From Leptolyngbya boryana PCC 6306 (GTDB lineage Bacteria; Cyanobacteriota; Cyanobacteriia; Leptolyngbyales; Leptolyngbyaceae), in assembly GCF_000353285.1 (NCBI RefSeq), contig NZ_KB731324.1, forward strand, positions 5,722,577 to 5,786,576: a stretch of DNA of 64,000 nucleotides, given 5' to 3'. How positions within the stretch are numbered: the first letter of the stretch is position 1; each line of letters opens with the position of its first letter. Positions 35,950-52,710 of the stretch are shown in pieces. Below the pieces are notes generated by a model. The model did no database searches. It was not told where the DNA came from and saw only the letters and a program-made list of their open reading frames with translations. The translations under genes and the position numbers were made by a program.

Positions 35950-36118
35950 TCACGTTGCAATCTGCAATTCATAGCAGCATTGTGTCAGGTTTTGCTGAAT
36001 TTGCTGCTCATCTAGGAATGCCTAAAATTTTGATTTAGCAAAGTTGTTTTACTGCTGCCTAGGAATTCCGTAATCATCGTGACGGGCATTCCTTGCTTTT
36101 TCAGGTTTAGCATGTGGT

Positions 36119-36511
36119 TTAGCAATCCTTCAGTTCAGGAGTTTGATTCAAAATCTGACTGCGAATTGAGGTGAATTCTGCATAGGCAGTCGCTGTATCG
36201 CGATCGCGGCGAAACACAGCCAAGTTGTGACAGTTTTGAAAGGCAAGCTTGATATTGAAATGCGATTCGACTGCGCCCCGAATTGCATCCCCTCCGACCA
36301 TGCGTAACAATTGTCCTCGCGCCTGCTCGTTGGGCGGCGCGATCGCATGATTTGACCAGCCTAGGTTTTCTGCTTCGATCTCCTTGACCAGTGTTTCAAC
36401 GATTCCCCAAGCGTAGGGCAATGACTGACGAATCGTTTCAACAAAAGCAGATTCGTCGATCGTATCCATTTCCGCCTGTTGCACCAATTCTGCACTCACA
36501 TCTAGGGACAT
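36119..36511 (-). CDS. SCO5389-type conserved small protein behind a Fur-like box
   Basis: 130 residues. The blocks SLPYAWGIVETLV, PPNEQARGQLLRMVGGDAIR, HFNIKLAFQNCHNLAVF and the terminal RSQILNQTPELKDC match an actinobacterial/cyanobacterial family typified by Streptomyces SCO5389. No enzymatic motif is recognised. Two conserved Cys (about 94 and 130) could matter. A good Fur-box-like palindrome lies 47 nt upstream of the ATG, suggesting control by iron. It stands alone between DUF3531 and tRNA-Gly. Confidence 0.85.
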   Translation of the reverse strand: MSLDVSAELVQQAEMDTIDESAFVETIRQSLPYAWGIVETLVKEIEAENLGWSNHAIAPPNEQARGQLLRMVGGDAIRGAVESHFNIKLAFQNCHNLAVFRRDRDTATAYAEFTSIRSQILNQTPELKDC

Positions 36512-36557
36512 CTATTTTCTCCTTTCGCTAAAAGCTAGGTGATTCTAACACAGAGAA

Positions 36558-36572
36558 TGAGAACAATTATCA
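36558..36572. promoter_or_regulatory. Fur-box-like palindrome upstream of the SCO5389-type gene
   Basis: TGAGAACAATTATCA matches the 7-1-7 Fur consensus TGATAATnATTATCA at 12 of 14 informative positions. It is centred about 54 nt upstream of the minus-strand start at 36511, a position typical of Fur-repressed promoters. Not experimentally supported. Confidence 0.55.
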
Positions 36573-36607
36573 TTACAAAAATACGAGACGTGATTTAAAC
36601 GCAACAA

Positions 36608-36632
36608 AAGCTTCTGAGTCACTCAGAAGCTT
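36608..36632 (-). terminator. Terminator of tRNA-Gly
   Basis: AAGCTTCTGA / TCAGAAGCTT form a perfect 10-bp stem with a 5-nt loop. On the minus strand it is followed by TTTTGTTG. It lies 13 nt beyond the tRNA 3' end. Confidence 0.88.
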
Positions 36633-36644
36633 CTAACTTGCAAA

Positions 36645-36715
36645 AGCGGGCACCGGGAATCGAACCCGGATATCCTGCTTGGAAGGCAGGTGTTTTACCA
36701 CTAAACTATGCCCGC
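36645..36715 (-). tRNA. trnG-UCC: tRNA-Gly (anticodon UCC)
   Basis: Read on the minus strand the 71-nt element folds into a standard cloverleaf: acceptor GCGGGCA with TGCCCGC, D arm AGTTTAGTGGTAAAAC, anticodon arm CTGCC-TTCCAAG-GGCAG-type loop with TCC, and T arm with GGTTCGATTCC. Position 73 is U, as usual for bacterial tRNA-Gly. CCA is not encoded. It reads GGA (and by wobble GGG) codons. Confidence 0.96.
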
Positions 36716-37331
36716 GCGTTTCGGCGCTTAATTAGAATAGCATCTCTTCTTAGCAATTTCAACAACAATCTTTTCAAATTTCTTTTCAGATTTCAGACTT
36801 TTGTTGCTCAAGGAAGTGCACCTCTTACTCGACAGTATATTGCAATGCATTGAGTCTAGACTTTCAATATCATAAGAAATTTAAATTGTTCAAGATGGAA
36901 CTGGCTATCCCCCTTTTATCTAGAGGGATTGAGGGATTCGTCTAGGCTGTGACCGACCTGCTTTGATCGTTTTACTGAGCCAAAAGCTCAGCTGCACGAA
37001 GACTCAATTTAGTAGAAACAGACACTTTGTTAATACTATGGACGAGGAAATTACAATCTTGTTATGATCCCCAATAATTAGATTCCTCATTTCATTGAGC
37101 TTCGCTGTCAACAGATTGGGGTTTCACATTATCAGGGTATGCCAGTCTACCAGGGGCAAGCATTCACACCTAGGGCATACGCAAGTTTTTAATCAATTCA
37201 CGTTCGCAAAGAAGTCTCCTATCGTTTTGGATGAGGAGCAGTCTCATGTGTGTATCGTGCAGATTTGTGAGAGCGCTCAGTGTGATGTGCAGCCTGGAAA
37301 CCATCCTTGAATTGACCTGCCCACATAAGAT
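36716..37331. other. Gene-free region between tRNA-Gly and the NRPS gene
   Basis: About 615 AT-rich nt, divergent promoter space for tRNA-Gly (leftward) and the NRPS gene (rightward). It contains a small perfect hairpin CTGAGC-CAAAA-GCTCAG (36975-36991) and several TA-rich hexamers (e.g. TTATGAT near 37061) but no clear pair of promoter boxes. A 71-codon TTG-initiated frame at 37095-37310 has no family support. No transposase remnant could be established. Confidence 0.5.
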
Positions 37332-40300
37332 ATGCAAAGTTTGACTGTAGCCGATTCATCGACCCAAGTTTCATCTGGGTATCCGCTCTCGCAGCAGCAA
37401 CAAGGACTCTGGTTTCTGTACCAACTCGCTCCTGAAAGCAGTGCGTACAACATTTATCAAACCGTTCGCATTCGAGGCGAGTTTGATTTCAATGCTTGGC
37501 AACAGGCTTGGCAGCAGCTTTTTGAGGCACATGCAATTTTGCGATCGCGCTACCTCGACCTTAAAGGGCAACCCCTACGTATCATTGCTCCAGGCAGAAT
37601 TCCTCTACGGTACATCCAGGCTTCTGACTGGAGAGCGTCCACCTTAAAGCGCCAGATCTTAGCTGAAACTACAAAATCCTTTCGACTCGAAACAGAACCC
37701 GCGATTCGAGTCAGCCTGTTTGAATGCAGCCCGCAAGAACAGATTCAAGTGATCACGATGCACCACATTGCAGGAGACATGTGGACATTTGATCTGTTGA
37801 TTCAGGAATGGCAGCAACTTTATCATGCGCAACCTTTGCAGAAGCAACAGTTTGATTATGCTGACTATGTTCAGTGGCAGACGGAACTGCTGAGAAGCGA
37901 TCGCGCAAAAGACTTACTTGACTTCTGGCAACATCAACTTGCAGGCGATCGACCTCAACTTGATCTGCCGAGTAAGCCCCGTATTCTACAGACTGAGCAA
38001 AGCGGCATTCAGTCGTTTCCGATGCCTCAGCAACTCGTTCAAGCCCTGAAATCTCTGGCTCAGGCTCAAGGGTATAGCCTCTATCGAGTTGTATTGACTG
38101 CTTTTCTAGTGCTGCTTTATCGCTATACAGAGCTAACTGATTTAACGATCGGGACTGCGATGGCAGGACGTTGGGGCGAGGAGCAATTTCGAGGGATGAT
38201 CGGGTACTTCTCAAATATGCTTCCTTTGAGAGTGCCCATACAAGGAAAACTATCATTTGACAGGCTTTTGCAGCAGGTACATCAACGTGTCACCGAGGTA
38301 CAAGCTCATCAGGATATGCCGTTTCAAGAGCTCGTCAAACAGCAGCGGGAAGAGTTGTTCTCGGTGACGTTTACTTGGCAGAAGCATCGTTGGTTGAATC
38401 AACTCGGTGAGGGGTTGCACCTCGAACCGTATTTACTAGAGCATCAAGGTGGAGCAACCTTTGATCTCGATTTGCAAGTGGTCGAGGCAGGCGATCGCTT
38501 TAATGTTGTTTGGCAATACAATGCCAATCGGTTTGAGGACAGCACGATCGCGCGCATGGCTCAGCAGTTTGAGACATTGCTCGAAAGCATCATTCACAAT
38601 CCCCAAGAACGGATTTCTCACCTTGCAATCTTGCCCGTGCAGGAACAGCATCGACTGCTTGTAGAGTGGAATGCAACGGCACAGTCTTTTCCATCAGGTT
38701 GTGTGCATGAATTCATCTCAGTTCAGGCTGCAAAGACACCGAATGCGATCGCGATCGAGTTTGGTCAAGACCAGATAACTTATCAGGAACTCGAACAGAG
38801 ATCGAATCAGCTTGCCCGTTACTTACAAGCAAAAGGTGTTCAGTCTGAAAGTTTAGTTGGCATTTGTATGCCGCGATCGATTGACTTTATTGTGGGAATT
38901 CTCGCCATTCTCAAAGCAGGCGGGGCGTTTGTTCCACTTGATCCAACCTATCCGAAAGAGCGTTTAGCCTTACTGATTTCAGATGCTCAAGTGACACTGC
39001 TCTTAACGCAGCAAAATTCAATGACTGAAATCGATTCGCCTGTCATTGATGTCGAGATTGCACAGGACGAAATTCGATCGTTCAGTTCAGAAACAATTCC
39101 GAGCAACGTCAAGCCCAACAATTTAGCTTATATTATTTACACTTCAGGCTCGACCGGAAGACCGAAAGGCGTAATGATTGAGCATCAGAGTATGATCAAC
39201 CATCATTTCGCAGTGATCCAAGAATATGAGTTGAGGGAAACCGATCGAGTTTTACAAGCTTCTGCGTTGAGTTTTGATATTGCGATCGAAGAAATCTTTC
39301 CCACCTTAATGTGCGGTGCAAGGTTAGTTCTCAGATCTCCTGATTGTCTGCTTTCGACCCAACAGTTTCTGCAATTCATTGAAACTTATCAAATTACTGT
39401 CCTCAATCTCCCGACTGCACTGTGGCATCAAATTGTCTATGCGCTGGCAGAACTGAATTTGCACTTAACGTCTACCGTTCGATTAGTCGTTGTCGGTGGA
39501 GAGAAAGCCTCACGATCGACGTATCTGACTTGGCTCGAAAAAGTTGGGCAGCATCCCCGCTGGATCAATACCTATGGACCAACGGAAGCAACGGTGATTG
39601 CCACACTTTACGATCCAATTCGATCCGGATTCGACCAAGCGGAACTCTCGATCGGTAGTGCGATCGCGAATACTCAAACTTATGTTTTAGATGCGCAGAT
39701 GCAGCCCGTTCCCATCGGAGTCACTGGAGAACTGTGGATTGGAGGAGTAGGCGTTGGGCGTGGCTATCTGCGTCGTCCTGAACAGACCAGAGAAAGATTT
39801 ATCGAACATCAGTTTCCCGGACTGCCGAAAACTCGACTGTATCGAACAGGCGACTTAGTTCGATACCGCGAAGACGGCAAGCTTGAATATTTAGGCAGAA
39901 ATGATGATCAGATCAAGATTCGAGGATTTCGGATTGAGCTAGGAGAAGTCGAATTTCAACTCACGCAACATCCTGCAATCACCACTGCGATCGTGCTTGC
40001 CCAAAATCAGCAACTCATCGCTTATGTGATTCCTCAAGCCTGTGTTGAACCTACGCAATTGCAGCAGTTCTTAAAGCAAAGACTTCCGAGCTACATGATT
40101 CCGAGTGCGTTTGTGGAATTAGAAACTTTTCCAATGACCCCAAACGGGAAAGTCGATCGCAAAGCACTGCTAAAAATTGCACCGTCAGTGCCGACCAGAG
40201 AGATTGCTCTACCAGAAACGAAACTAGAGCGTCAACTGGCTCAAATTTGGCAAGAGGCGTTGCAGGTTGAACCGATTGGATTAGATGATGACTTCTTTGA

Positions 40301-41258
40301 TCTAGGCGGACATTCGCTCTTGATGCTGCGGTTGGCAGCAAAAATCGAGCAGGTTGTAGGCAAATCCGTATCAATGTCACTGCTCTATCAAGCACCGACG
40401 ATTCGGCAATTAGCAACCGCGATCGCAGGTGAACCTCCTGATTTGTCAACCGATCTGATTCGATTTCAGGCAGGAGAACCAGGGCGATCGCCATTATTTT
40501 GCATTCCAGGAGCACTGGGAACCTTTCGAGTATGTGAGGGCTTACGGGCACAGCTCGATCCGCGCGTGCCCATTTATGGCATTCAAGAAATAGCCATGAC
40601 TCGAAAAACAACACTCGAACAGATGGCAAGCCATGCAATTCGAGAAATGCAGACATTACAACCCGAAGGCCCATATTACCTTTTGGGCTACTCGATGGGC
40701 GCGATCGTCGCCTATGAAATTGCTCAACAACTTCATGCTCAAGGGCAATCGGTCGCCCTACTTGGCTTGATTGGGCCTGGCAATTTAGTGACGCTGCCCA
40801 AGTGGTTGTCTGTGCTCCACAACTTTCCCCAATTGCAGTTGCTGCTTGAACTCCTGACACGCTGGAATGCTTATGGGATAGAGATACGATCGCTAAATTT
40901 TGTCGATCGAGCTTGGCTTTTCTTCAAAAAAGCGAGTTGGAGCATCAAATTAGTCTTGAGAAGAATTCTGTTTGGGATACTGGAAACGGTGACACAAAGC
41001 ATTGACTCGCGCTATCCCCAGTACGATCGCATCGCTCAGCGCTACCGTCCCCGCCCCAGTGCATTTCCCGTGCAATTATTTCTGTCGGAAGATGAGCTTG
41101 ATCCGCCCGATCGCTGGGTCAGTTGGCGAATGCTGGCAGAAGACAAATTAACGGTACATATTTTGCCGGGAGATCATGTCACCTGTATCGACAGATCTGC
41201 GATCGCGCAACTCGTCAAAAAAATTGCTCATCTGCTGCCGCCCCCAAAAGCTGTATGA
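37332..41258 (+). CDS. Single-module nonribosomal peptide synthetase (C-A-T-TE)
   Basis: 1308 residues. A condensation domain (about 15-440) has HHIAGDM at 144-150; the usual HHxxxDG keeps both His and Asp but Gly is Met. The adenylation domain (about 450-960) shows AYIIYTSGSTGRPKGVMIEH, INTYGPTEATV, YRTGDLVRY and NGKVDRKALL. The carrier domain has the phosphopantetheine Ser995 in LGGHSLLML. The thioesterase has nucleophile Ser1121 in GYSMGA and a likely catalytic His in GDHVTC. From alignment by eye, the substrate-pocket code begins Asp-Ile-Glu; the amino acid cannot be named. It joins an incoming acyl or peptidyl group to one residue and releases it. No partner synthetase, phosphopantetheinyl transferase or exporter is nearby. 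Confidence 0.92.
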   Translation: MQSLTVADSSTQVSSGYPLSQQQQGLWFLYQLAPESSAYNIYQTVRIRGEFDFNAWQQAWQQLFEAHAILRSRYLDLKGQPLRIIAPGRIPLRYIQASDWRASTLKRQILAETTKSFRLETEPAIRVSLFECSPQEQIQVITMHHIAGDMWTFDLLIQEWQQLYHAQPLQKQQFDYADYVQWQTELLRSDRAKDLLDFWQHQLAGDRPQLDLPSKPRILQTEQSGIQSFPMPQQLVQALKSLAQAQGYSLYRVVLTAFLVLLYRYTELTDLTIGTAMAGRWGEEQFRGMIGYFSNMLPLRVPIQGKLSFDRLLQQVHQRVTEVQAHQDMPFQELVKQQREELFSVTFTWQKHRWLNQLGEGLHLEPYLLEHQGGATFDLDLQVVEAGDRFNVVWQYNANRFEDSTIARMAQQFETLLESIIHNPQERISHLAILPVQEQHRLLVEWNATAQSFPSGCVHEFISVQAAKTPNAIAIEFGQDQITYQELEQRSNQLARYLQAKGVQSESLVGICMPRSIDFIVGILAILKAGGAFVPLDPTYPKERLALLISDAQVTLLLTQQNSMTEIDSPVIDVEIAQDEIRSFSSETIPSNVKPNNLAYIIYTSGSTGRPKGVMIEHQSMINHHFAVIQEYELRETDRVLQASALSFDIAIEEIFPTLMCGARLVLRSPDCLLSTQQFLQFIETYQITVLNLPTALWHQIVYALAELNLHLTSTVRLVVVGGEKASRSTYLTWLEKVGQHPRWINTYGPTEATVIATLYDPIRSGFDQAELSIGSAIANTQTYVLDAQMQPVPIGVTGELWIGGVGVGRGYLRRPEQTRERFIEHQFPGLPKTRLYRTGDLVRYREDGKLEYLGRNDDQIKIRGFRIELGEVEFQLTQHPAITTAIVLAQNQQLIAYVIPQACVEPTQLQQFLKQRLPSYMIPSAFVELETFPMTPNGKVDRKALLKIAPSVPTREIALPETKLERQLAQIWQEALQVEPIGLDDDFFDLGGHSLLMLRLAAKIEQVVGKSVSMSLLYQAPTIRQLATAIAGEPPDLSTDLIRFQAGEPGRSPLFCIPGALGTFRVCEGLRAQLDPRVPIYGIQEIAMTRKTTLEQMASHAIREMQTLQPEGPYYLLGYSMGAIVAYEIAQQLHAQGQSVALLGLIGPGNLVTLPKWLSVLHNFPQLQLLLELLTRWNAYGIEIRSLNFVDRAWLFFKKASWSIKLVLRRILFGILETVTQSIDSRYPQYDRIAQRYRPRPSAFPVQLFLSEDELDPPDRWVSWRMLAEDKLTVHILPGDHVTCIDRSAIAQLVKKIAHLLPPPKAV

Positions 41259-41329
41259 TCCAATTTGCCTGCTCTCCGGTACAATGGAATATTTGTGCGG
41301 AAACAGTTGAAAACTGAGAACAAATTATT

Positions 41330-41788
41330 ATGGCGAAGCGGATTCAGCTCGTCCTGACGCAGGACGTAAGCAAATTAGGACGGATGGGAGACTTAGTCGA
41401 AGTCGCGCCGGGATATGCAAGAAACTATCTCGTACCCCAAGGAAAAGCAACGAACGTCAACCCTGGAATTCTCAAGCAGGTCGCACGTCGTCGTGAGTTG
41501 GAAGAACAACGTTTGGCTGAATTGAAACAGCAAGCGCTCAAAATCTCGGCAGCGATCGAAGCTGCTGGCGGATTTGATATTGCGAAACAAGTCGGTGAAA
41601 ACGATGCGATCTTCGGAACCGTAACGAACCAAGATGTCGCAGATGCAATCCAAGCAAAGACCAATCAAGAGGTCGATCGCCGCACGATTACACTGCCGGA
41701 AATTCACAAGATTGGAGAATACACCGCTCACGTGAAATTGCACCCCGACGTGACTTCTGCAGTCGTGATTCGAGTTGTTGCAAGCTAG
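41330..41788 (+). CDS. rplI: 50S ribosomal protein L9
   Basis: 152 residues: [20 protein letters not shown], then [16 protein letters not shown] (the N-terminal rRNA-binding lobe), a long connecting helix ([20 protein letters not shown]) and a C-terminal lobe. L9 bridges adjacent ribosomes and helps maintain reading frame. Pairing of rplI with dnaB is a conserved arrangement in cyanobacteria and other bacteria. Confidence 0.96.
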
Positions 41789-41831
41789 TACTTAAATACT
41801 AAAAACTTGCTAAGATTAGAAATGCCTGTAT

Positions 41832-41878
41832 ATTGGGGGGTTGAATCCGCAGTTTTTGATTGGATTCAACCCCTCAAT
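41832..41878 (+). promoter_or_regulatory. 17-bp hairpin in the rplI-dnaB gap
   Basis: ATTGGGGGGTTGAATCC (41832-41848) pairs with GGATTCAACCCCTCAAT (41862-41878), with one G-U pair and a 13-nt loop. It ends 33 nt before the dnaB start. No U-tract follows, so it may be an RNA-processing site, attenuator or mRNA-stabilising stem rather than a simple terminator. Confidence 0.6.
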
Positions 41879-41910
41879 ACATTCGCGCTCCTTCTACCCG
41901 CCCCCGCATC

Positions 41911-44538
41911 ATGGTTCAAGAGTTTAGTTTTCAACCTGCAAACGATCGGATTCCGCCCCAAAATTTAGAAGCTGAAGAGTCAATTTTAGGCGGAATTTTG
42001 CTTGATCCTGAAGCGATTACGCGCGTGCTGGATATTCTGAAAACCGAGATGTTTTACAGTAGTGCGCATCAGGAGATTTATCGAGCATGTGTCGCACTGC
42101 ATCAGCAGGGATCGCCGACCGATTTGATGAGTGTGACGACTTGGTTAATCGATCGAGAATTTTTAGACAAAGTGGGCGGGCAGTCAAAACTGGTGCAACT
42201 CGTCGATCGCACCGTGAGTGCCGTCAATATCGATCAATATGCACAGTTAGTGATTGATAAATATTTGCGGCGGAGACTGATCAGTGCTGGACATCAGATT
42301 TCACATTTAGGGCATGAAACCTCGAAAGAGTTAGAAAAAATTCTCGATGAAGCTGAACAAAAGGTGTTTAGCATTACCCAAGTCAGACCGAATCAAGGGT
42401 TAGTTCCGACTTCGGATATTTTGACAAAGACATTCTCAGAAATTGAAGAACGATCGGCAGGCATGGCTCTACCGGGACTCGCTTCTGGTTTCTATGATCT
42501 CGATGGCAAAACTCAAGGCTTTCAGCGATCGGATTTGATCATCGTTGCAGGTCGCCCGTCAATGGGAAAATGCCTTGCTCACGACGCAGAATTAGTGTTA
42601 GCAGATGGCTCTATCTCAACGATCGCAGAAATCTATCAAAATCGCCAAGCCCAATTACTCACCCTCAATGACAATTGGAAGTTTTCGATCACTGAACCTT
42701 CTGCCTTTGTCGATGACGGAATTAAGCCTGTTTTCCGAGTCACAACTCGCTTAGGTAGAACCGTCGAAACAACGCTAAGTCACCCCTATTTGACTTTAGA
42801 TGGATGGTTGCCTTTAGCTCATGTGAAAGTGGGCGATCGCATAGCAGTTCCACGCATCATTGACGTTTTTGGGACACAAACCCTTCGAGCTTGTGAAATT
42901 AAGCTGTTGGGCTACTTGATTGGAGATGGGTGTCTGACGAAAGGTTCGCCAGAGTTTACTAACATCAATCCATTGATTCAAGCAGATTTCGTTGAAGCGG
43001 TATCTGAATTGGGTGATCTACGCGTTCAGAAAACCGATTCTAATGGCACACGAACCCCGTCTTTCCGAATTGCTTCAGCATCGGGTGGCGGTCATGGAAG
43101 TAACGCACTCACGAACTGGCTGAGAACACTGAATCTTTACGGCAAATCAGCACACGAAAAAACGATCCCAGAGCCAATTTTCCAATTAACGCGATCGCAC
43201 ATTGCACTTTTCCTGAATCGGCTTTTTGCAACAGACGGTTGGGCAAGTGTTTTGGCAAGTGGACAGTCTCAACTCGGCTACGCAACAGTTAGCGAGAAAT
43301 TAGCTCGCCAGATTCAACACTTACTGCTGCGATTTGGCATTATTGCAAGACTGAAATTGAGAAGGGTGAAATATCAGGGCGAGCGGCGGTTAGCTTGGCA
43401 ACTTGATATTACCGATGCTCGATCGATTCAAACATTCATCACAGAGATCGGCATTTTTGGCAAAGAAGCGGCATTACTTCAGGTTGAAGCTGCGATCGCG
43501 GTTCGGAAATACCAAACCAATCGTGACTTAATTCCGATCGAAGTTTGGCAACAGCTTGAAGTCGCGCGGCAGGGCGAACCTTGGAGCCAGCTTGCACAAC
43601 GGGCAGGAATCGCAGGATCTTCCAATATTCATGTTGGAAAACGCGCCCCGACGCGCGATCGCCTCATGACTTTAGCGACTGCGCTTCAGCATCCTCAACT
43701 TCAAGAACTTGCCGACAGTGATGTTTATTGGGATGAGATTGTCTCAATTGAATCAGTTGGCGAAAAGCAAGTCTACGATTTGACGATTCCAACAACCCAT
43801 AACTTTGTCGCAAATGACATCTGTGTGCATAACACTGCCTTTTGTCTCGGTTTAGGGCGGAATATTGCGGCTCAATACAAGCTTCCTGTCGCTGTCTTTA
43901 GCTTAGAAATGTCGAAAGAGCAGATCGTGCAGCGCTTACTCGCAAGTGAGGCAAGAATTGAGAGTGGAAGATTGAGATCGGGAAGAATTGCTCAACACGA
44001 TTGGGAGCCTTTGAGCAATGCGATCGGGCAACTTTCCAATTTAAGAATTTTCATTGACGATACCCCCAATATCAGCGTTGTCGAAATGCGATCGCGCGCT
44101 CGTAAACTGCAAGCTGAGCAAGGCGGCGCACTCGGAATGATTCTCATTGACTACCTGCAACTGATGGAAGGGAATGGCAGTGAAAATCGCGTTCAAGAAC
44201 TGTCTCGAATTACACGCGCCTTAAAAGGTCTTGCTCGTGAGTTGAACGTGCCCGTCATTGCGCTCTCGCAATTAAGTAGAAGTGTAGAAGCTCGCGCTGA
44301 TAAACGCCCAATGATGTCAGATCTGCGCGAAAGTGGTTCGATCGAGCAAGATGCCGACCTTGTGATGATGCTTTACCGCGACGAATACTACAATCCAGAC
44401 ACCCCCGATCGCGGCATTGCAGAAGTGCTGATTACTAAACATCGCAATGGACCCACTGGAACGATCAAACTGCTCTTTGAGCCACAATTTACTAAGTTCT
44501 TGAATCTTGCGGTCTCGAATCGATCGACCTACGAATAA
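41911..44538 (+). CDS. dnaB: Replicative DNA helicase DnaB, interrupted by an intein
   Basis: 875 residues before splicing, about 454 after, the normal DnaB length. Start ATG 41911 ([18 protein letters not shown]); the in-frame TTG at 41860 lies within the leader hairpin. N-extein: N-terminal domain ([19 protein letters not shown]) and the helicase core up to the P-loop GRPSMGK. The C-extein resumes with Thr, then [17 protein letters not shown], Walker B-type [10 protein letters not shown] and the conserved [16 protein letters not shown]. DnaB is the hexameric 5'-3' helicase of the replication fork. Because the intein splits the P-loop, splicing is required for ATP binding. Confidence 0.95.
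42571..43833 (+). mobile_element. DnaB intein with LAGLIDADG homing endonuclease
   Basis: 421 residues from Cys1 ([13 protein letters not shown], block A) to Asn421 ([12 protein letters not shown], blocks F and G), followed by Thr+1. Block B reads [13 protein letters not shown], with the catalytic His. Two dodecapeptide-like motifs, [11 protein letters not shown] and [13 protein letters not shown], mark a LAGLIDADG endonuclease domain, so this is a full-length rather than mini intein. The insertion point is after Lys of the Walker A GRPSMGK|T, the same place as the Rhodothermus DnaB intein and different from the Synechocystis DnaB intein, which interrupts RESG|SIEQ. The latter site is intact in this gene. 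Confidence 0.93.
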
Positions 44539-44618
44539 AACCCGCCAACTTACTGATTCAAATCCGTGAGAATCCAGTAAGATAAGTGACAGATTCGGAA
44601 TCGCTATCACGCCTACCA

Positions 44619-45380
44619 ATGGTTGAGTCAAGACTGATTACTGGTCAGCTTGTGGAACTCCCCAAGTATCGAGTTCGAGAAAGCATTAAAGCAAAACACG
44701 TCAGCCTAAAAATGACGGTGCAGGGCGGCTTAGAAGTCATCATCCCTCGCGGATTTGACCAAAGCCGTATCCCGGAAATTTTGCATACCAAACAAAGTTG
44801 GATCGAGCGCACGATTGGGCGGCTCGAAGCCCAACGGCAGCAATTGTCGATCGACCCCTGCCCGCCTTTGCCAGAGCAAATGATCCTCAGAGCGATCGAC
44901 CAAACTTGGGAGATTGACTATCAGCCAACTGGCTTCTCGCGGGTCACTCTGACTGAAAAGGGCAAATCCCGCCTGATCTTGCGCGGCAGTACTCACAACG
45001 AAGACCTCTGCAAAGCACTACTCCAACAGTGGCTCGCCCATAAAGCGTATCAGCGGCTCGTGCCCTGGCTCTGGTCAGTCAGCCAAGAGCTAGAACTTCC
45101 GTTTCACAAAGCCTCGATTCGCGGACAAAAAACTCTTTGGGCAAGCTGCTCGCAACAATACAACATCAGCTTGAACTACAAACTATTATTTTTGCCCCCG
45201 GCACTTGTGCGATATGTCTTTGTGCATGAGCTATGTCACACCATCCATCTCAATCACTCGCCGCGATTCTGGGCACTTGTACAGGAAAAAGATCCCACCT
45301 ATAAAGCGATCGACCAAGAACTCCGACGCTCGAGTCACTATGTCCCCGGATGGTTAGAACCGAGTGGAATCAAGGAATAA
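44619..45380 (+). CDS. YgjP/DUF45-type zinc metallopeptidase-like protein
   Basis: 253 residues from ATG 44619; an in-frame GTG at 44586 would add 11 residues. N-terminal YRVRESIKAKHVSLKM and KQSWIERT, followed by the family block RGQKTLWASCS and the zinc motif HELCH within YVFVHELCHTIHLNHSPRFW, the third ligand being a downstream His. It is a SprT/WLM-like gluzincin fold. Substrates of YgjP-type proteins are poorly defined; in E. coli UpfP-like roles have been suggested. It follows dnaB after about 80 nt. Confidence 0.88.
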   Translation: MVESRLITGQLVELPKYRVRESIKAKHVSLKMTVQGGLEVIIPRGFDQSRIPEILHTKQSWIERTIGRLEAQRQQLSIDPCPPLPEQMILRAIDQTWEIDYQPTGFSRVTLTEKGKSRLILRGSTHNEDLCKALLQQWLAHKAYQRLVPWLWSVSQELELPFHKASIRGQKTLWASCSQQYNISLNYKLLFLPPALVRYVFVHELCHTIHLNHSPRFWALVQEKDPTYKAIDQELRRSSHYVPGWLEPSGIKE

Positions 45381-45455
45381 GTCGCTCTTTTGATAGGGGA
45401 TGAAACCGACTCAAACTTTATAAGATGCGAAGGTTTTTCATCCCCGTCATTGAAT

Positions 45456-45656
45456 ATGACCGAACCCACTGAACGTCTGCCCAGTCCAACGAACGACACC
45501 CCTCCAAAGAAACAGAAGATTGTCAATCCCGATGATCTCGTTTATCGGGGTGGCACAGATGCCGATCCCAGAGAACTCGTTGAAAACCCCGCCGTCACGC
45601 CGGAAATGTTGAATGAACCCGGTGATCTTAGAGATGATTTGCTGGAAGAAGATTAA
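45456..45656 (+). CDS. Small acidic, disordered hypothetical protein
   Basis: 66 residues from ATG 45456 (MTEPTERLPSPTND). It is rich in Pro, Glu and Asp, ends DLLEED, and has a conserved-looking VNPDDLVYRGGTDADPRELVENP segment. An upstream frame opening (45390) would add a leader with no support. No family assigned; lack of hydrophobic core suggests an intrinsically disordered protein. Confidence 0.55.
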   Translation: MTEPTERLPSPTNDTPPKKQKIVNPDDLVYRGGTDADPRELVENPAVTPEMLNEPGDLRDDLLEED

Positions 45657-45691
45657 CGCAACCATGACTTTAGACCTAGGTTTTGACAAAA

Positions 45692-45707
45692 AGTGATCTC
45701 TATCACA
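45692..45707. promoter_or_regulatory. CRP-type palindrome upstream of the exopolysaccharide cluster
   Basis: AGTGA-TCTCTA-TCACA matches the CRP consensus TGTGA-N6-TCACA at 9 of 10 positions. It lies about 207 nt before the first glycosyltransferase start, with an AT-rich GATAAAT sequence 20-odd nt downstream. Cyanobacteria possess cAMP-responsive SyCRP1 with the same consensus. A role is inferred from the match only. Confidence 0.55.
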
Positions 45708-45913
45708 GGAAGGATGAATCAAGCTTCATGATAAATTTACAGTTGGCTTCAGCCCGTAATTTTGCCGTGCTAGTTCATTTCGTGACGATCGCGCATTCAT
45801 GCTAAGTAGAGATGTTCGCTCGTCTCCGCTTGGCAGTATTGTTCCACGATCAACACTTTGAACTTCTGAATGCGCTGGCTCCTCAGATTGCTTGTTGTCT
45901 TATCTGGCGTGTA

Positions 45914-47002
45914 ATGAAAGTAGCCCTAGTTCATGACTATCTAACGCAAAAAGGTGGTGCAGAGCGGGTCTTTGAGATGCTGTGCAAGCGCTATCCGGAT
46001 GCAGATATCTTTACATCGCTATATGAGCCGGAAGCGTCGATCGACTTTGGCGATCGCGAAGTTTTCACAACCTATTTGCAAAAAATCCCCCAAGCCTCTC
46101 GCTACTTCAAACTGCTTGCCCCCCTTTATTACTCTGCATTTCGGGCACTCGATTTGCGCGAATATGACTTAATTATCAGCAGCACAACCAGCTTTGCAAA
46201 AGGTGTCAGAAAGCGCCCCGATGCAAAGCACATTTGTTTTTGTCATAACATCACGCGATTTCTCTGGGACACGAAGACCTATCTGCGCGAATACACCGCT
46301 TATCGCCGCTTTATGCCCGTCATTGAACAAATCTTTCGGGCAATGCGCAAGACCGACTTGACCTATGCACAAGAGCCGGATGTTTACATTGCCAACTCTC
46401 GAACTGTGGCACAGCGCATCGAGCAAATCTATCAGAAGCCAGCGCAAGTGATCAATTGCCCGATCGATACACAAAAGTTTGCGTTTTCTAGTCAGAAAGA
46501 AGACTTTTACCTCGCTTCGGCACGATTAGTCAGCTACAAACGCCTAGATGTTGTCGTTGAAGCTTTTAACTGGTTGGGGTGGAATTTATTGATTACGGGA
46601 GATGGACCTGAACGCGATACGCTAGAAGCACGTGCAATGCAGAATGTTCAATTTTTGGGGCATGTCAGTGATGCAGAACGCAGGCGGCTTTTATCTAAAT
46701 CTCGATCGGTGATTGTCATGGCATTGGAAGACTACGGACTCGTTCCCGTCGAAGCCAATGCGAGTGGAACTCCCGTCATTGCTTACGGGGAAGGCGGTGT
46801 GCTCGATACCCAAATCCCTGGGATCACCGGAGTCTTTTTCAATTCACAGACTCCTCACGCGTTGCATCGAGCGCTTTTGCAAGCTCGATCGATGGAATGG
46901 AACTATCAAACGATCCGAGACCATGCTGTGAGTCGGTTCTCAGAAGATGTTTTCTTTCAATCGGTCGATCAACTCATCTTAGACGTCTGTGGCACTGGGT
47001 AA
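45914..47002 (+). CDS. GT4-family glycosyltransferase
   Basis: 362 residues from ATG 45914 (MKVALVHDYLTQKGGAERVF). The GT-B fold signs are the N-terminal KGGAERV loop, the acceptor-domain CHNITRFLWD and the EX7E motif in EDYGLVPVE, where the first Glu contacts the nucleotide-sugar. Related enzymes (WbaZ-like mannosyltransferases) use GDP-mannose. It is the first gene of the exopolysaccharide cluster and precedes the BY-kinase gene by 70 nt. Confidence 0.9.
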   Translation: MKVALVHDYLTQKGGAERVFEMLCKRYPDADIFTSLYEPEASIDFGDREVFTTYLQKIPQASRYFKLLAPLYYSAFRALDLREYDLIISSTTSFAKGVRKRPDAKHICFCHNITRFLWDTKTYLREYTAYRRFMPVIEQIFRAMRKTDLTYAQEPDVYIANSRTVAQRIEQIYQKPAQVINCPIDTQKFAFSSQKEDFYLASARLVSYKRLDVVVEAFNWLGWNLLITGDGPERDTLEARAMQNVQFLGHVSDAERRRLLSKSRSVIVMALEDYGLVPVEANASGTPVIAYGEGGVLDTQIPGITGVFFNSQTPHALHRALLQARSMEWNYQTIRDHAVSRFSEDVFFQSVDQLILDVCGTG

Positions 47003-49816: not shown

Positions 49817-50779
49817 ATGACAACTTTTGATCCGCTATTTTTGCAAGAAACGCAAAGCTCTACTTGGGAAAAGTCAGAGCTAGAAACCCTGCGGTGTTCT
49901 CTGTACTGGCGGCAACAGCAACTTTTAGTCTTGCAGCCTCCTGTATCAAAAGCTGGACAGAGCAGCGATCGCACTCAGCGCGCTTCCTCAATTCGCCCAC
50001 TTCGTGATCCAAACTGGCTTTCAGAATGCCTCAAGCGATCAACCGTACAACTTGTGCGAGCTGATCTCGACCTGGGAGAGCCTGCTCTTAAATCTTGGGC
50101 AGAAGCCTGTGAATCTTCTGGCAAAGCCCTGTATTTGCGACTTCCGAGTGCTGCGTATCTTCCCCACAAACACAGAGGCTGGCGTTGGGGTTGTAAGCGC
50201 GTTGCAGATTGGATATTAGCAGGAGTGGGTCTGATAGTGCTCAGTCCGATCTTGCTTGTCATTGCACTCGCGATCGCGCTAACCTCTCCCGGCTCGATTT
50301 TCTTTAGCCAGTGGCGAGTCGGAAAGCGAGGCAAGTTATTTCGAGTGCTGAAATTCCGTACCATGACGATGAATGCAGATCAGCAGCACCATCGAGTCAT
50401 GGCAGATCAATCGATTCACTGTCTGCACAAGCGAGAAGACGATCCGAGAATTACCGTGATCGGGAAATGGCTGAGACGCTATAGCCTTGATGAGTTACCT
50501 CAGTTGATCAATGTACTCCGGGGTGAGATGAGTTTAGTTGGACCAAGACCTTGGGCGCTTTATGATGCAGTGCGGCTCAGTGCTGATATGCAATTGCGTT
50601 TGAATGCTCTCCCTGGAATGACTGGAGCTTGGCAAGTGAGTGGGCGATCGACTCAATTAGATCTAGAAACCGTGAGCCAACAGGACTTAGACTATCTGCA
50701 CAATTGGTCATTTCGCGGTGATATTCAAATCTTATTGCGGACACTTCCGAAGGTATTGTCTGGATTCGGAGCTTTTTAG
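49817..50779 (+). CDS. hepC: Sugar transferase initiating exopolysaccharide synthesis (HepC-like)
   Basis: 320 residues. An N-terminal variable part (1-125) precedes a membrane helix (VADWILAGVGLIVLSPILLVI) and the bacterial sugar-transferase catalytic region: RVGKRGKLFRVLKFRTM, DDPRITVIGKWLRRYSLDEL PQ-type block, MSLVGPRPWA and LPGMTGAWQVSGRS. Such enzymes load the first sugar phosphate on undecaprenyl phosphate. The full layout resembles HepC of the Anabaena heterocyst envelope polysaccharide locus and, as there, lies next to a HepA-like exporter. Confidence 0.8.
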   Translation: MTTFDPLFLQETQSSTWEKSELETLRCSLYWRQQQLLVLQPPVSKAGQSSDRTQRASSIRPLRDPNWLSECLKRSTVQLVRADLDLGEPALKSWAEACESSGKALYLRLPSAAYLPHKHRGWRWGCKRVADWILAGVGLIVLSPILLVIALAIALTSPGSIFFSQWRVGKRGKLFRVLKFRTMTMNADQQHHRVMADQSIHCLHKREDDPRITVIGKWLRRYSLDELPQLINVLRGEMSLVGPRPWALYDAVRLSADMQLRLNALPGMTGAWQVSGRSTQLDLETVSQQDLDYLHNWSFRGDIQILLRTLPKVLSGFGAF

Positions 50780-50844: not shown

Positions 50845-52710
50845 ATGCCTTGGGTTCCGCATTATCTCAGACGAGGCGTAAGACAATGGTTTGGGGCGAC
50901 TCGGTTTTGGCAAGAAAATGAGTTTTTTATCCGAGAATTTCGTCACTTTCCCAACATCGCGATCGCTGCTATTTTGTTTGCACTTGGTTCAGCCGCGTTT
51001 GAGGGATTTGGATTTGGGTTTCTCCTCGCATTTTTGCAAAGCCTAGTTAGTCCAACGCTCGAACCGTTTCAAACCGGGATGCATTGGTTCGATGTTTGGA
51101 TTTTGGGCATCGATCGCGATGCGACCGAACGGCTGCTGCGGGTTTCGGGTCTGATTTTATGTTCAGCTTGGATTCGGGCTGGATTTAATTATCTGACTCA
51201 GATTTACACTGAACTGACGCAGCAAACTTTAGTCGATCGCTTACGCACGCAAATTTTCGAGCAGCTACAGTCGTTGAGTCTAAGCTATTTCAATCGTGTT
51301 TCGTCCGGTGATTTGGTCAATACATTAACGAATGAGATTGGCAGACTCAATTTTGCATTTACGCTCATCGCTTTTATTATCACAAAAGGATTAACTTTAA
51401 CCGTCTACGCCGTGTTGCTTTTTACGATCTCATGGCAGTTGACGCTGACATCACTCGTCTTATTCACACTCGTCGCCGTCTGTTTGTCGAATGTGAATGA
51501 GCGTGTCCGCAACAGTAGTGTTGATGTTTCGCGCGCGAATGCCCAATTTACTGCAACGGCACTGGAATTTATCACAGGTATTCGCACCGTACAAGCGTTT
51601 GCGACCCAAGAGTATGAGCGTGATCGCTTCTATGAAGCTAGCTCCAACATTGTTAAAGCGGGCATGAAAGCGATTCGCCAATTTGCGATTGTGCGTCCCC
51701 TCGCTGAAGGATTAGCAACGACCGTTTTGATCAGCATGATTGTTTTAGCAATCACGATTTTTGTGAAGCAGGGGAGTTTACAAACTGCCTCTTTACTGAC
51801 TTTTTTGTTTATCTTGTTTCGGCTCGTTCCAGCCATATATGAGATGAATACGAGCCGAGTGCAACTATTGTCAGCGACGGGCGCGATTCGGAATGTGCGG
51901 GAACTGTTAGCGCGAGAAGATAAACCGTATTTGCAAGAGGGAGATCGCATTTTTACAGGGTTGCATCAGTCGATCGAGTTCTTCACGGTTGATTTCGGAT
52001 ATGACGCAAATCATATCGTCCTTCGAGATGTCTCCCTCTCGATTCCGAAGGGAAAAGTGACGGCGATCGTGGGCGGATCGGGAGCCGGAAAAACAACGCT
52101 CGTCGATTTGATTCCCAGGTTTTACGATCCGAGTGCTGGCTATGTCTTGTTTGATGGCAAAGATGCGCGATCGTTTACTGTGAAATCGTTGCGGCAGAAG
52201 ATTGCGATCGTCAGTCAAGATACCTTTATTTTCAATACGACCGTTCGGGAGAACATTGCTTATGGGTTAACCAACATGACTGACGAACAGATTTGGCAGG
52301 CTGCGGTGCAGGCGAATGCACTGGCATTTATCTTAGAAATGCCGGAGAAATTTGAGACGATTTTGGGCGATCGCGGCGTGCGATTATCTGGAGGACAGCG
52401 GCAAAGATTAGCGATCGCGCGGGCATTGCTCCGTGATCCAGAAATTTTGATCTTAGATGAAGCAACCAGTGCATTAGATTCTGAATCAGAGCGATTGATT
52501 CAACAGTCTCTAGAGCAATTGTCGAAAGGCAGAACCGTAATTACGATCGCGCATCGGTTATCGACGATTATGCGCGCGGATCAAGTAGTGGTGATGGAGC
52601 AGGGGCGGTTAGTCGAGCAAGGTCGATATCAAGAGTTGCTAGAGCGACAAGGGCGGCTTTGGCACTATCACCAAATTCAGCATGAAATGCGATCGAGTGA
52701 AAAGGCGTAG
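50845..52710 (+). CDS. hepA: HepA-like ABC exporter (fused membrane and ATPase domains)
   Basis: 621 residues: six transmembrane helices (about 30-350), then an ATPase with Walker A GGSGAGKTT, Q-loop SQDTF, signature LSGGQRQR, Walker B ILILDEATSALD and switch His in IAHRLS. The N-terminus, length and gene order after a HepC-like transferase fit HepA, required in Anabaena for deposition of the heterocyst envelope polysaccharide. Homologs in vegetative or non-heterocystous strains export other surface polysaccharides, so heterocysts are not proven. Confidence 0.85.
   Translation: MPWVPHYLRRGVRQWFGATRFWQENEFFIREFRHFPNIAIAAILFALGSAAFEGFGFGFLLAFLQSLVSPTLEPFQTGMHWFDVWILGIDRDATERLLRVSGLILCSAWIRAGFNYLTQIYTELTQQTLVDRLRTQIFEQLQSLSLSYFNRVSSGDLVNTLTNEIGRLNFAFTLIAFIITKGLTLTVYAVLLFTISWQLTLTSLVLFTLVAVCLSNVNERVRNSSVDVSRANAQFTATALEFITGIRTVQAFATQEYERDRFYEASSNIVKAGMKAIRQFAIVRPLAEGLATTVLISMIVLAITIFVKQGSLQTASLLTFLFILFRLVPAIYEMNTSRVQLLSATGAIRNVRELLAREDKPYLQEGDRIFTGLHQSIEFFTVDFGYDANHIVLRDVSLSIPKGKVTAIVGGSGAGKTTLVDLIPRFYDPSAGYVLFDGKDARSFTVKSLRQKIAIVSQDTFIFNTTVRENIAYGLTNMTDEQIWQAAVQANALAFILEMPEKFETILGDRGVRLSGGQRQRLAIARALLRDPEILILDEATSALDSESERLIQQSLEQLSKGRTVITIAHRLSTIMRADQVVVMEQGRLVEQGRYQELLERQGRLWHYHQIQHEMRSSEKA

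Follow-up and report, generated by a model that had tools for sequence, protein, structure and literature searches.

Results

A lone single-module synthetase gene between tRNA-Gly and rplI

We analyzed a 64-kb stretch of DNA (hereafter the window; 64,000 nucleotides of contig NZ_KB731324.1) from the cyanobacterium Leptolyngbya boryana PCC 6306, whose genome assembly (G000) comprises 7.26 Mb in 5 contigs and is 99.99% complete. Between tRNA-Gly(tcc) and rplI, the window carries a gene for a nonribosomal peptide synthetase (NRPS) of one module, a candidate N-acyl amino acid synthetase with condensation (C), adenylation (A), thiolation (T), and thioesterase (TE) domains in that order (Table 1). 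The gene is a single intact frame of 1308 codons from ATG to stop. Pfam searches of the 1308-residue protein matched Condensation at residues 16–443 (6.3e-87), AMP-binding at 464–813 (9.3e-91) with its C-terminal part at 872–940, PP-binding at 968–1031 (1.9e-17), and Thioesterase at 1054–1148 (2.1e-26). The last match spans profile positions 2–101 of 226, with the remainder of the TE lying outside it; locally built profiles delimited all four domains (Table 1). The motifs of an NRPS module (HHxxxD in C, the A core motifs, the carrier Ser in LGGHSL, and GxSxG with the TE His) are kept in all four orthologs, counting the window gene. Because three orthologs align with the protein over ~1300 residues at 70–71% identity, with a ratio of nonsynonymous to synonymous substitution rates (dN/dS) of 0.11–0.14, we conclude that the frame is a real gene and not a chance product. 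An earlier note on this DNA, made from the sequence alone, had called it a one-module C-A-T-TE synthetase, and the intact frame, Pfam domains, orthologs, and dN/dS bear this out.

Table 1. Features of the NRPS gene and its surroundings (window positions)
Feature	Position	Strand	Basis
One-module NRPS gene, C-A-T-TE, 1308 aa	37332..41258	+	ORF calling, Pfam, orthologs
Condensation domain, residues 16-450, N-terminal in protein	37377..38681	+	Pfam, local profile, tree
C3 motif HHxxxD (HHIAGD, residues 144-149), followed by MWTFDLL; invariant in 4/4 orthologs	37761..37778	+	Alignment
Adenylation domain, residues 458-948, pocket DIENVGTVIK	38703..40175	+	Pfam, local profile, A-domain alignment
Thiolation (carrier) domain, residues 962-1034, LGGHSL with Ser995	40215..40433	+	Pfam, local profile, orthologs
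Thioesterase domain, residues 1050-1302; Ser1121 of GYSMG and His1282 kept, Gly1148 at the beta-6 acid position, Glu1253/Glu1255 invariant in four orthologs	40479..41237	+	Alignment, local profile
616-bp region from tRNA-Gly to start codon; gene-proximal part weakly alike in orthologs, including the differently placed G021 ortholog	36716..37331	+	Alignment
tRNA-Gly(tcc), left border of insertion site	36645..36715	-	tRNA/Rfam search
71-bp gap to rplI; promoter-like stretch before rplI kept (by eye), also present at empty sites	41259..41329	+	Alignment
rplI (ribosomal protein L9), right border	41330..41788	+	Pfam
Sugar transferase	49817-50779		Sequence reading only
ABC transporter, 9.6 kb downstream of NRPS gene	50845-52710		Sequence reading only

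Conservation and site history

We searched 42 genomes of the family (the order search covered the same 42) and 388 genomes of the class, with seven genus members sampled besides G000 (G017–G023). At E ≤ 1e-250, the family search gave five matches: the window gene, its orthologs in G017, G018, and G021 (70–71% identity), and a 43% match within a longer protein of G004. Orthologs are thus present in three of the seven other genus members. At E ≤ 1e-262, at least 11 genomes matched in the class search, with identities of 39–46% outside the genus; because just a handful of candidates was scored in each genome (two here, and up to four in another class search), the matches are lower bounds.

In G000, G017, and G018, the gene is flanked by tRNA-Gly(tcc) and rplI; the same site is empty in G019, G020, and G023, where only 138–148 bp separate the tRNA from rplI. 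By eye, both ends of the occupied site are preserved, namely the tRNA border and the rplI leader with its promoter-like stretch. The G021 ortholog sits on a short contig among different neighbors (this assembly is a draft of 1060 contigs), and rplI of G021 follows tRNA-Gln; from G022 we obtained neither an ortholog nor an rplI match. An unrooted tree of rplI, the dnaB exteins, and ygjP groups G017, G018, and G021 (0.94) and G019 with G020 (0.997), with G000 on the longest branch. Given this tree, the shared site in G000 and G017/G018 suggests that the gene was ancestral in the genus and has suffered at least two losses. We consider it probable that the gene is old in the genus and was lost more than once; gene exchange between species is a possible alternative to ancestral presence with losses.

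None of the four orthologs contains a stop. Whole-gene dN/dS (Nei-Gojobori) was 0.11–0.14 in the six ortholog pairs, at high synonymous divergence (dS 0.7–1.7), and the ratio (omega) was 0.05–0.22 in C, A, T, and the TE core across all pairs. Constraint was lowest at TE residues 1151–1235 (omega 0.125–0.352). Purifying selection acts on every domain.

The condensation domain

The C3 motif reads HHIAGDMWTFDLL in all four orthologs, and the C domain is 64–80% conserved within the genus. We placed it in a tree built from 80 C-domain stretches, each exceeding 410 aa and together drawn from 47 sources; the tree was labelled by genomic context and contained no labelled reference C sequences. One of the two L073 C domains (shared label) and a few G000 C domains were omitted from the tree; all 16 C stretches of G000 were compared directly. 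The window C domain falls in a 12-member clade (support 1.0) whose members are N-terminal in 12 of 12 cases, compared with 30 of the 68 domains outside the clade; locus ends may have truncated some of the latter. The window C domain is itself the first domain of its protein, starting at residue 16, as starter and hybrid C domains do. Because the C domain is N-terminal and belongs to a clade in which all sampled members are N-terminal, the acyl or peptidyl donor should arrive in trans, from another protein. The expectation in the earlier note that one amino acid is condensed with a donor from elsewhere is thus a plausible one.

The basal clade member, L094, is a C-A-T-TE protein in its own right, encoded immediately downstream of a polyketide synthase (PKS) protein with ketosynthase (KS), acyltransferase, ketoreductase, and acyl carrier protein (ACP) domains, a context that points to an ACP-bound acyl donor. 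Two further members, L097 and L098, open multi-domain proteins, and L111 and L123 are cut by contig ends. A subclade (0.967) comprises the seven single-module proteins, those of the window group together with those of G141, G232, and G283, which belong to another family. A DNA pattern for HHIAGD followed by M/I/L/V/F and W was found in 10 of the 388 class genomes, once in each, and its reversed control in no listed genome. As a separate observation, the related first-module C domains of L097 (G297) and L098 (G202) lie in proteins beside a fused GATase/anthranilate-synthase-like protein (by Pfam for L097 only), and the C-like terminal domain there reads HHYANDHQK.

The adenylation domain

In an alignment of 156 A-domain stretches, the pocket reads DIENVGTVIK, and DIENIGTVIK in G017. 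Glu653 stands at the pocket position of GrsA residue 239 in all four orthologs, an acidic residue as expected of A domains for basic amino acids. The code DIENVGTVTK occurs in the TE-bearing last modules L087/L094, L095, and L096, with 50–52% identity over the domain, and DIEDIGTVTK occurs in L069. Among Protein Data Bank (PDB) chains with a single A domain, ApnA A1 (4d4g) scored highest (7.9e-146, rank 7 behind chains with two A domains). According to PMC11253843, Pls uses a pocket Glu to bind Lys through its side chain, and ApnA A1 uses E204 together with S243 for Arg/Tyr. ApnA A1 would thus share its pocket Glu with the window A domain, which differs in having Asn at position 278. We favor a basic or polar amino acid as the predicted substrate and name none. 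The pocket code DIENVGTV was not found in our literature search, and the code DVENAGVV was; the pocket-code terms searched for were absent from PMC5311044.

The thioesterase domain

Ser1121 and His1282 are invariant in the four orthologs. As read from the alignment, Glu1253 and Glu1255 lie approximately at the usual position of the alpha/beta-hydrolase acid. The closest TE in the PDB is that of AB3403 (4.4e-16, over two short stretches). Among the 13 TEs compared, Cys replaces the nucleophilic Ser in four (L070, L071, L109, and L110).

Other NRPS and PKS genes

G000 contains 17 Condensation matches including that of the window gene, two of which look like pieces of one domain, and we recovered 16 C stretches. 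The further NRPS genes, all outside the window, are spread over several chromosomal sites and a plasmid-like contig. No other NRPS common to the four carriers was found in the genus C-domain survey, in which G021 is represented by its draft. A two-gene NRPS is present in G017, G018, G019, G020, G021, and G023 (six of the eight genus genomes; L132–L136, L146 and L124, L126–L129, L137); the survey did not find it in G000 or G022. Its C domains are 78–96% identical to their nearest genus counterparts (78–87% for G017, G018, and G021), and they reach at most 50–58% with any of the 16 C stretches recovered from G000. Because nothing in G000 matches more closely, the two-gene NRPS does not follow the lone gene. 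The C domains of G021 are those of the ortholog and of one two-gene NRPS. A KS survey gave only FabF-sized or partial matches, and no modular PKS, in G017 and G021; G000, G018, and G023 also have long KS frames, which in G000 and G018 are of modular size. Each of the eight genus genomes has one match to PF01648, the phosphopantetheinyl transferase family.

Further NRPS-related loci of G000 deserve mention in their own right. L070 (7867–11883; G000:C1 at ~630 kb) is a second lone C-A-T-TE protein, of 1338 aa and with a Cys TE nucleophile (GGYCFGG), whose C domain has relatives in G022 and G023. L074 (G000:C2, 270–290 kb), together with L072 and L073, represents a plasmid-borne NRPS cluster, apparently for a siderophore, beside genes annotated as TonB receptor, acylase, and (in one record) TauD-like. 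Over a 20-kb piece of contig C2 (L074), identity to a plasmid of Leptolyngbya boryana IAM M-101 and dg5 is 100.0%, which places the host in that species or close to it. At G000:C1:5342710–5344284, an A-domain-like match is broken by two TGA codons.

Surroundings of the gene

No second synthetase was detected in the 64-kb window with local C, A, T, and TE profiles run against window proteins of at least 250 aa. Around the orthologs in G017, G018, and G021 and around the G141, G232, and G283 proteins, profiles likewise detected no second C, A, T, or TE protein in the stretches read, which are short upstream in G021 and G283. The statement that the synthetase stands alone therefore holds for the window and equally for the two relatives read on both flanks; it does not extend to the genome, with its NRPS genes elsewhere. 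Window neighbors identified by Pfam are DUF3531, an SCO5389-family open reading frame (ORF), rplI, dnaB with an intein, YgjP, a GT4 glycosyltransferase, and a Wzz protein. The earlier note had also seen no transporter nearby. An ABC transporter does lie downstream, and by eye it and the sugar transferase appear to belong to the glycosyltransferase/Wzz polysaccharide block. We considered a link to polysaccharide synthesis, since the G232 gene adjoins a WecA-like Glycos_transf_4 gene and the window gene lies 4.5 kb before the GT4/Wzz block, and dropped it because the G021, G141, and G283 sites have no such neighbor by eye in the stretches read.

A mobile island at tRNA-Gly is possible but not supported by these sequences: the insert lies on the 5' side of the tRNA gene, and neither the tRNA nor the rplI leader is disrupted. 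No integrase was noticed among the neighboring window ORFs, although no profile or end-repeat search was aimed at one. In the non-carrier G020, an integrase-like ORF (L084 2052–3239, by eye) lies near tRNA-Thr, ~5 kb from tRNA-Gly. Rfam searches for a structured RNA leader over 36000–46000 matched the tRNA only, and the leaders of the four orthologs align poorly (58% mean column identity). Two neighbors vary among relatives. The dnaB gene (41860–44538) carries an intein that contains a LAGLIDADG domain; the dnaB exteins are contiguous in G017, G019, G020, and G023, and G018 seemingly has two insertions. The ORF at 36119–36511 on the minus strand belongs to the SCO5389 or 'NucS shadow' family (PF20704), and G017 and G018 have another gene there beyond the tRNA.

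Discussion

Proposed function and its alternatives

We propose that the gene product is an NRPS of one module that works on its own, coupling one amino acid, perhaps a basic one, with an acyl-ACP or acyl-coenzyme A (acyl-CoA) and setting free the resulting N-acyl amino acid; we give this proposal roughly an even chance. The A domain would charge the carrier domain of the same protein with one L-amino acid, whose side chain may be basic or polar. The C domain would then acylate the carrier-bound amino acid with an acyl thioester of primary metabolism (acyl-ACP or acyl-CoA) and not with the product of a dedicated synthetase, and the thioesterase would free the N-acyl amino acid or a cyclised form of it. 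As judged from the protein sequences, acyl-ACP or acyl-CoA would most simply be the donor in trans, and the gene probably shares ancestry with a separate C-A-T-TE protein that ends a PKS-NRPS line.

Several observations weigh against this proposal. The acid after beta-6 is missing from the TE in all four orthologs (Gly or Ala), compared with Asp (seven) or Glu (two) in all nine other TEs, leaving the full type I triad incomplete at that position, and release may for this reason not be ordinary hydrolysis. The RDxS core of the C7 motif is absent in seven of seven single-module clade members and kept in the other five; this carries little weight because the loss may be one event in the subclade and because strict RDxS occurs in just 12 of the 68 C domains outside the clade (the looser Rxx[SGHNQ] in 53 of 68). 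The word "complete" in the earlier note accordingly fits the four domains and their core motifs, and does not fit the TE acid or C7. A basic substrate is not secured either, because a similar pocket, DVENAGVVTK in OciB-A4, serves the 3-amino-6-hydroxy-2-piperidone (Ahp) position in cyanopeptolin synthetase (PMC2533009, in the portion available); moreover, the correspondence of the Glu in Pls and ApnA, and of ApnA E204/S243, to GrsA positions 239 and 278 is one that we presume. A PKS donor is possible in G000 and G018 because of their modular-size KS frames, and the partner could possibly differ between species.

A differing partner is central to the view that the protein is a terminal module acting in trans, taking a peptidyl or aminoacyl chain from an NRPS or A-T protein elsewhere in the genome, different in each species. 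The several other NRPS loci of G000, among them a 624-aa A-T protein at C1:4085 kb, could supply such a chain, and three other cyanobacterial proteins (L087/L094, L095, and L096) have the DIENVGTVTK pocket in a last module that bears a TE. However, in the genus survey, with G021 as a draft, the other NRPS sets do not overlap across all four carriers, and a C domain that starts at residue 16 would leave little room for an N-terminal docking domain. We regard this explanation as unlikely.

The anomalies of C7 and the TE are accommodated differently if a small free amine or alcohol is what the C domain couples to the carrier-bound amino acid, or if the protein just releases or cyclises one amino acid, with no fatty acyl donor in either case. 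The RDxS loss and the odd TE would fit here, but HHxxxD is intact, the C domain is conserved within the genus, the scarcity of strict RDxS elsewhere means that its loss says little, and the nearest pathway context has an ACP-bound donor; we think it quite unlikely. Decay of the gene, as a functionless remnant of an earlier assembly line, might seem to follow from its absence in several relatives, the lost TE acid and C7 core, and the least constrained stretch at residues 1151–1235. Four stop-free orthologs, with the low omega of C, A, T, and the TE core in all pairs, argue against decay, and we hold it to be very unlikely.

Relation to known systems

The C-A-T-TE architecture is already known, and the window gene adds a member to a known kind of enzyme. 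EntF, SrfA-C, and AB3403 (PDB matches 5ja1, 2vsq, and 4zxh) have the same four domains in the same order. EntF and SrfA-C perform the last step of a known cluster; the window protein, in contrast, has neither a cluster nor the beta-6 acid of the TE. ObiF (6n8e among the PDB matches), which makes an N-acyl amino-beta-lactone, is reportedly encoded in a cluster that includes a dedicated aryl donor, and its domain order is different. It resembles the proposed enzyme as an NRPS in which a single amino acid is acylated and then released (PMC6668435).

Starter (Cs) and hybrid C domains, both named as classes in the accessible parts of PMC3315503 and PMC10212144, are likewise N-terminal with a donor in trans, and the basal clade member L094 stands behind a PKS. 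In contrast, the window C3 motif reads HHIAGDMWT and its C7 has no RDxS; the hybrid C domains described in the accessible part of PMC3315503 follow an aminotransferase domain, which was not seen for the window C domain. Close counterparts are the single-module proteins of the cyanobacterial genus g41 (G141, G232, and G283), with sister C domains that also have no RDxS. These proteins differ in their A pockets and genomic places, and G141 and G283 have Cys for the TE Ser; in the G283 stretch a contig end lies close to the gene start.

Membership in a known multi-locus pathway was considered and rejected. The nearest pathway-embedded homolog is only 43–45% identical, and it is this finding that leaves the earlier note's reading in place, which was to fall if the same gene were identified in such a pathway. 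All 557 matching plasmid records are below 60% identity, and the best segments of the 33 loci from a genome-contig scan reach 33–41%. Our literature searches found no publication on this gene or its product; an undescribed product family, as suggested in the earlier note, is at most a possibility. An antiSMASH analysis of L. boryana CZ1 lists three NRPS and two NRPS-like regions, and the available text of PMC10536570 does not name this gene.

A more far-reaching idea, which we consider doubtful, is that these proteins form an undescribed cyanobacterial family of self-sufficient, single-gene N-acyl amino acid synthetases. Its members would share one C subclade (HHIAGD[MIL]W, with the C7 RDxS lost) and draw donors straight from primary lipid metabolism, with A and TE domains exchanged between lineages; the window TE would have a relocated acid (Glu1253 or Glu1255) or an unusual mode of release. 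If a partner is needed after all, the protein would be an ordinary trans-acting module. If the proposed function is correct, one gene would be enough for a host like Leptolyngbya boryana to produce an acylated amino acid of small size, and donor choice, TE chemistry, and biological role would be approachable with one knockout and one purified protein. The gene would then show how a terminal module can gain independence from its assembly line.

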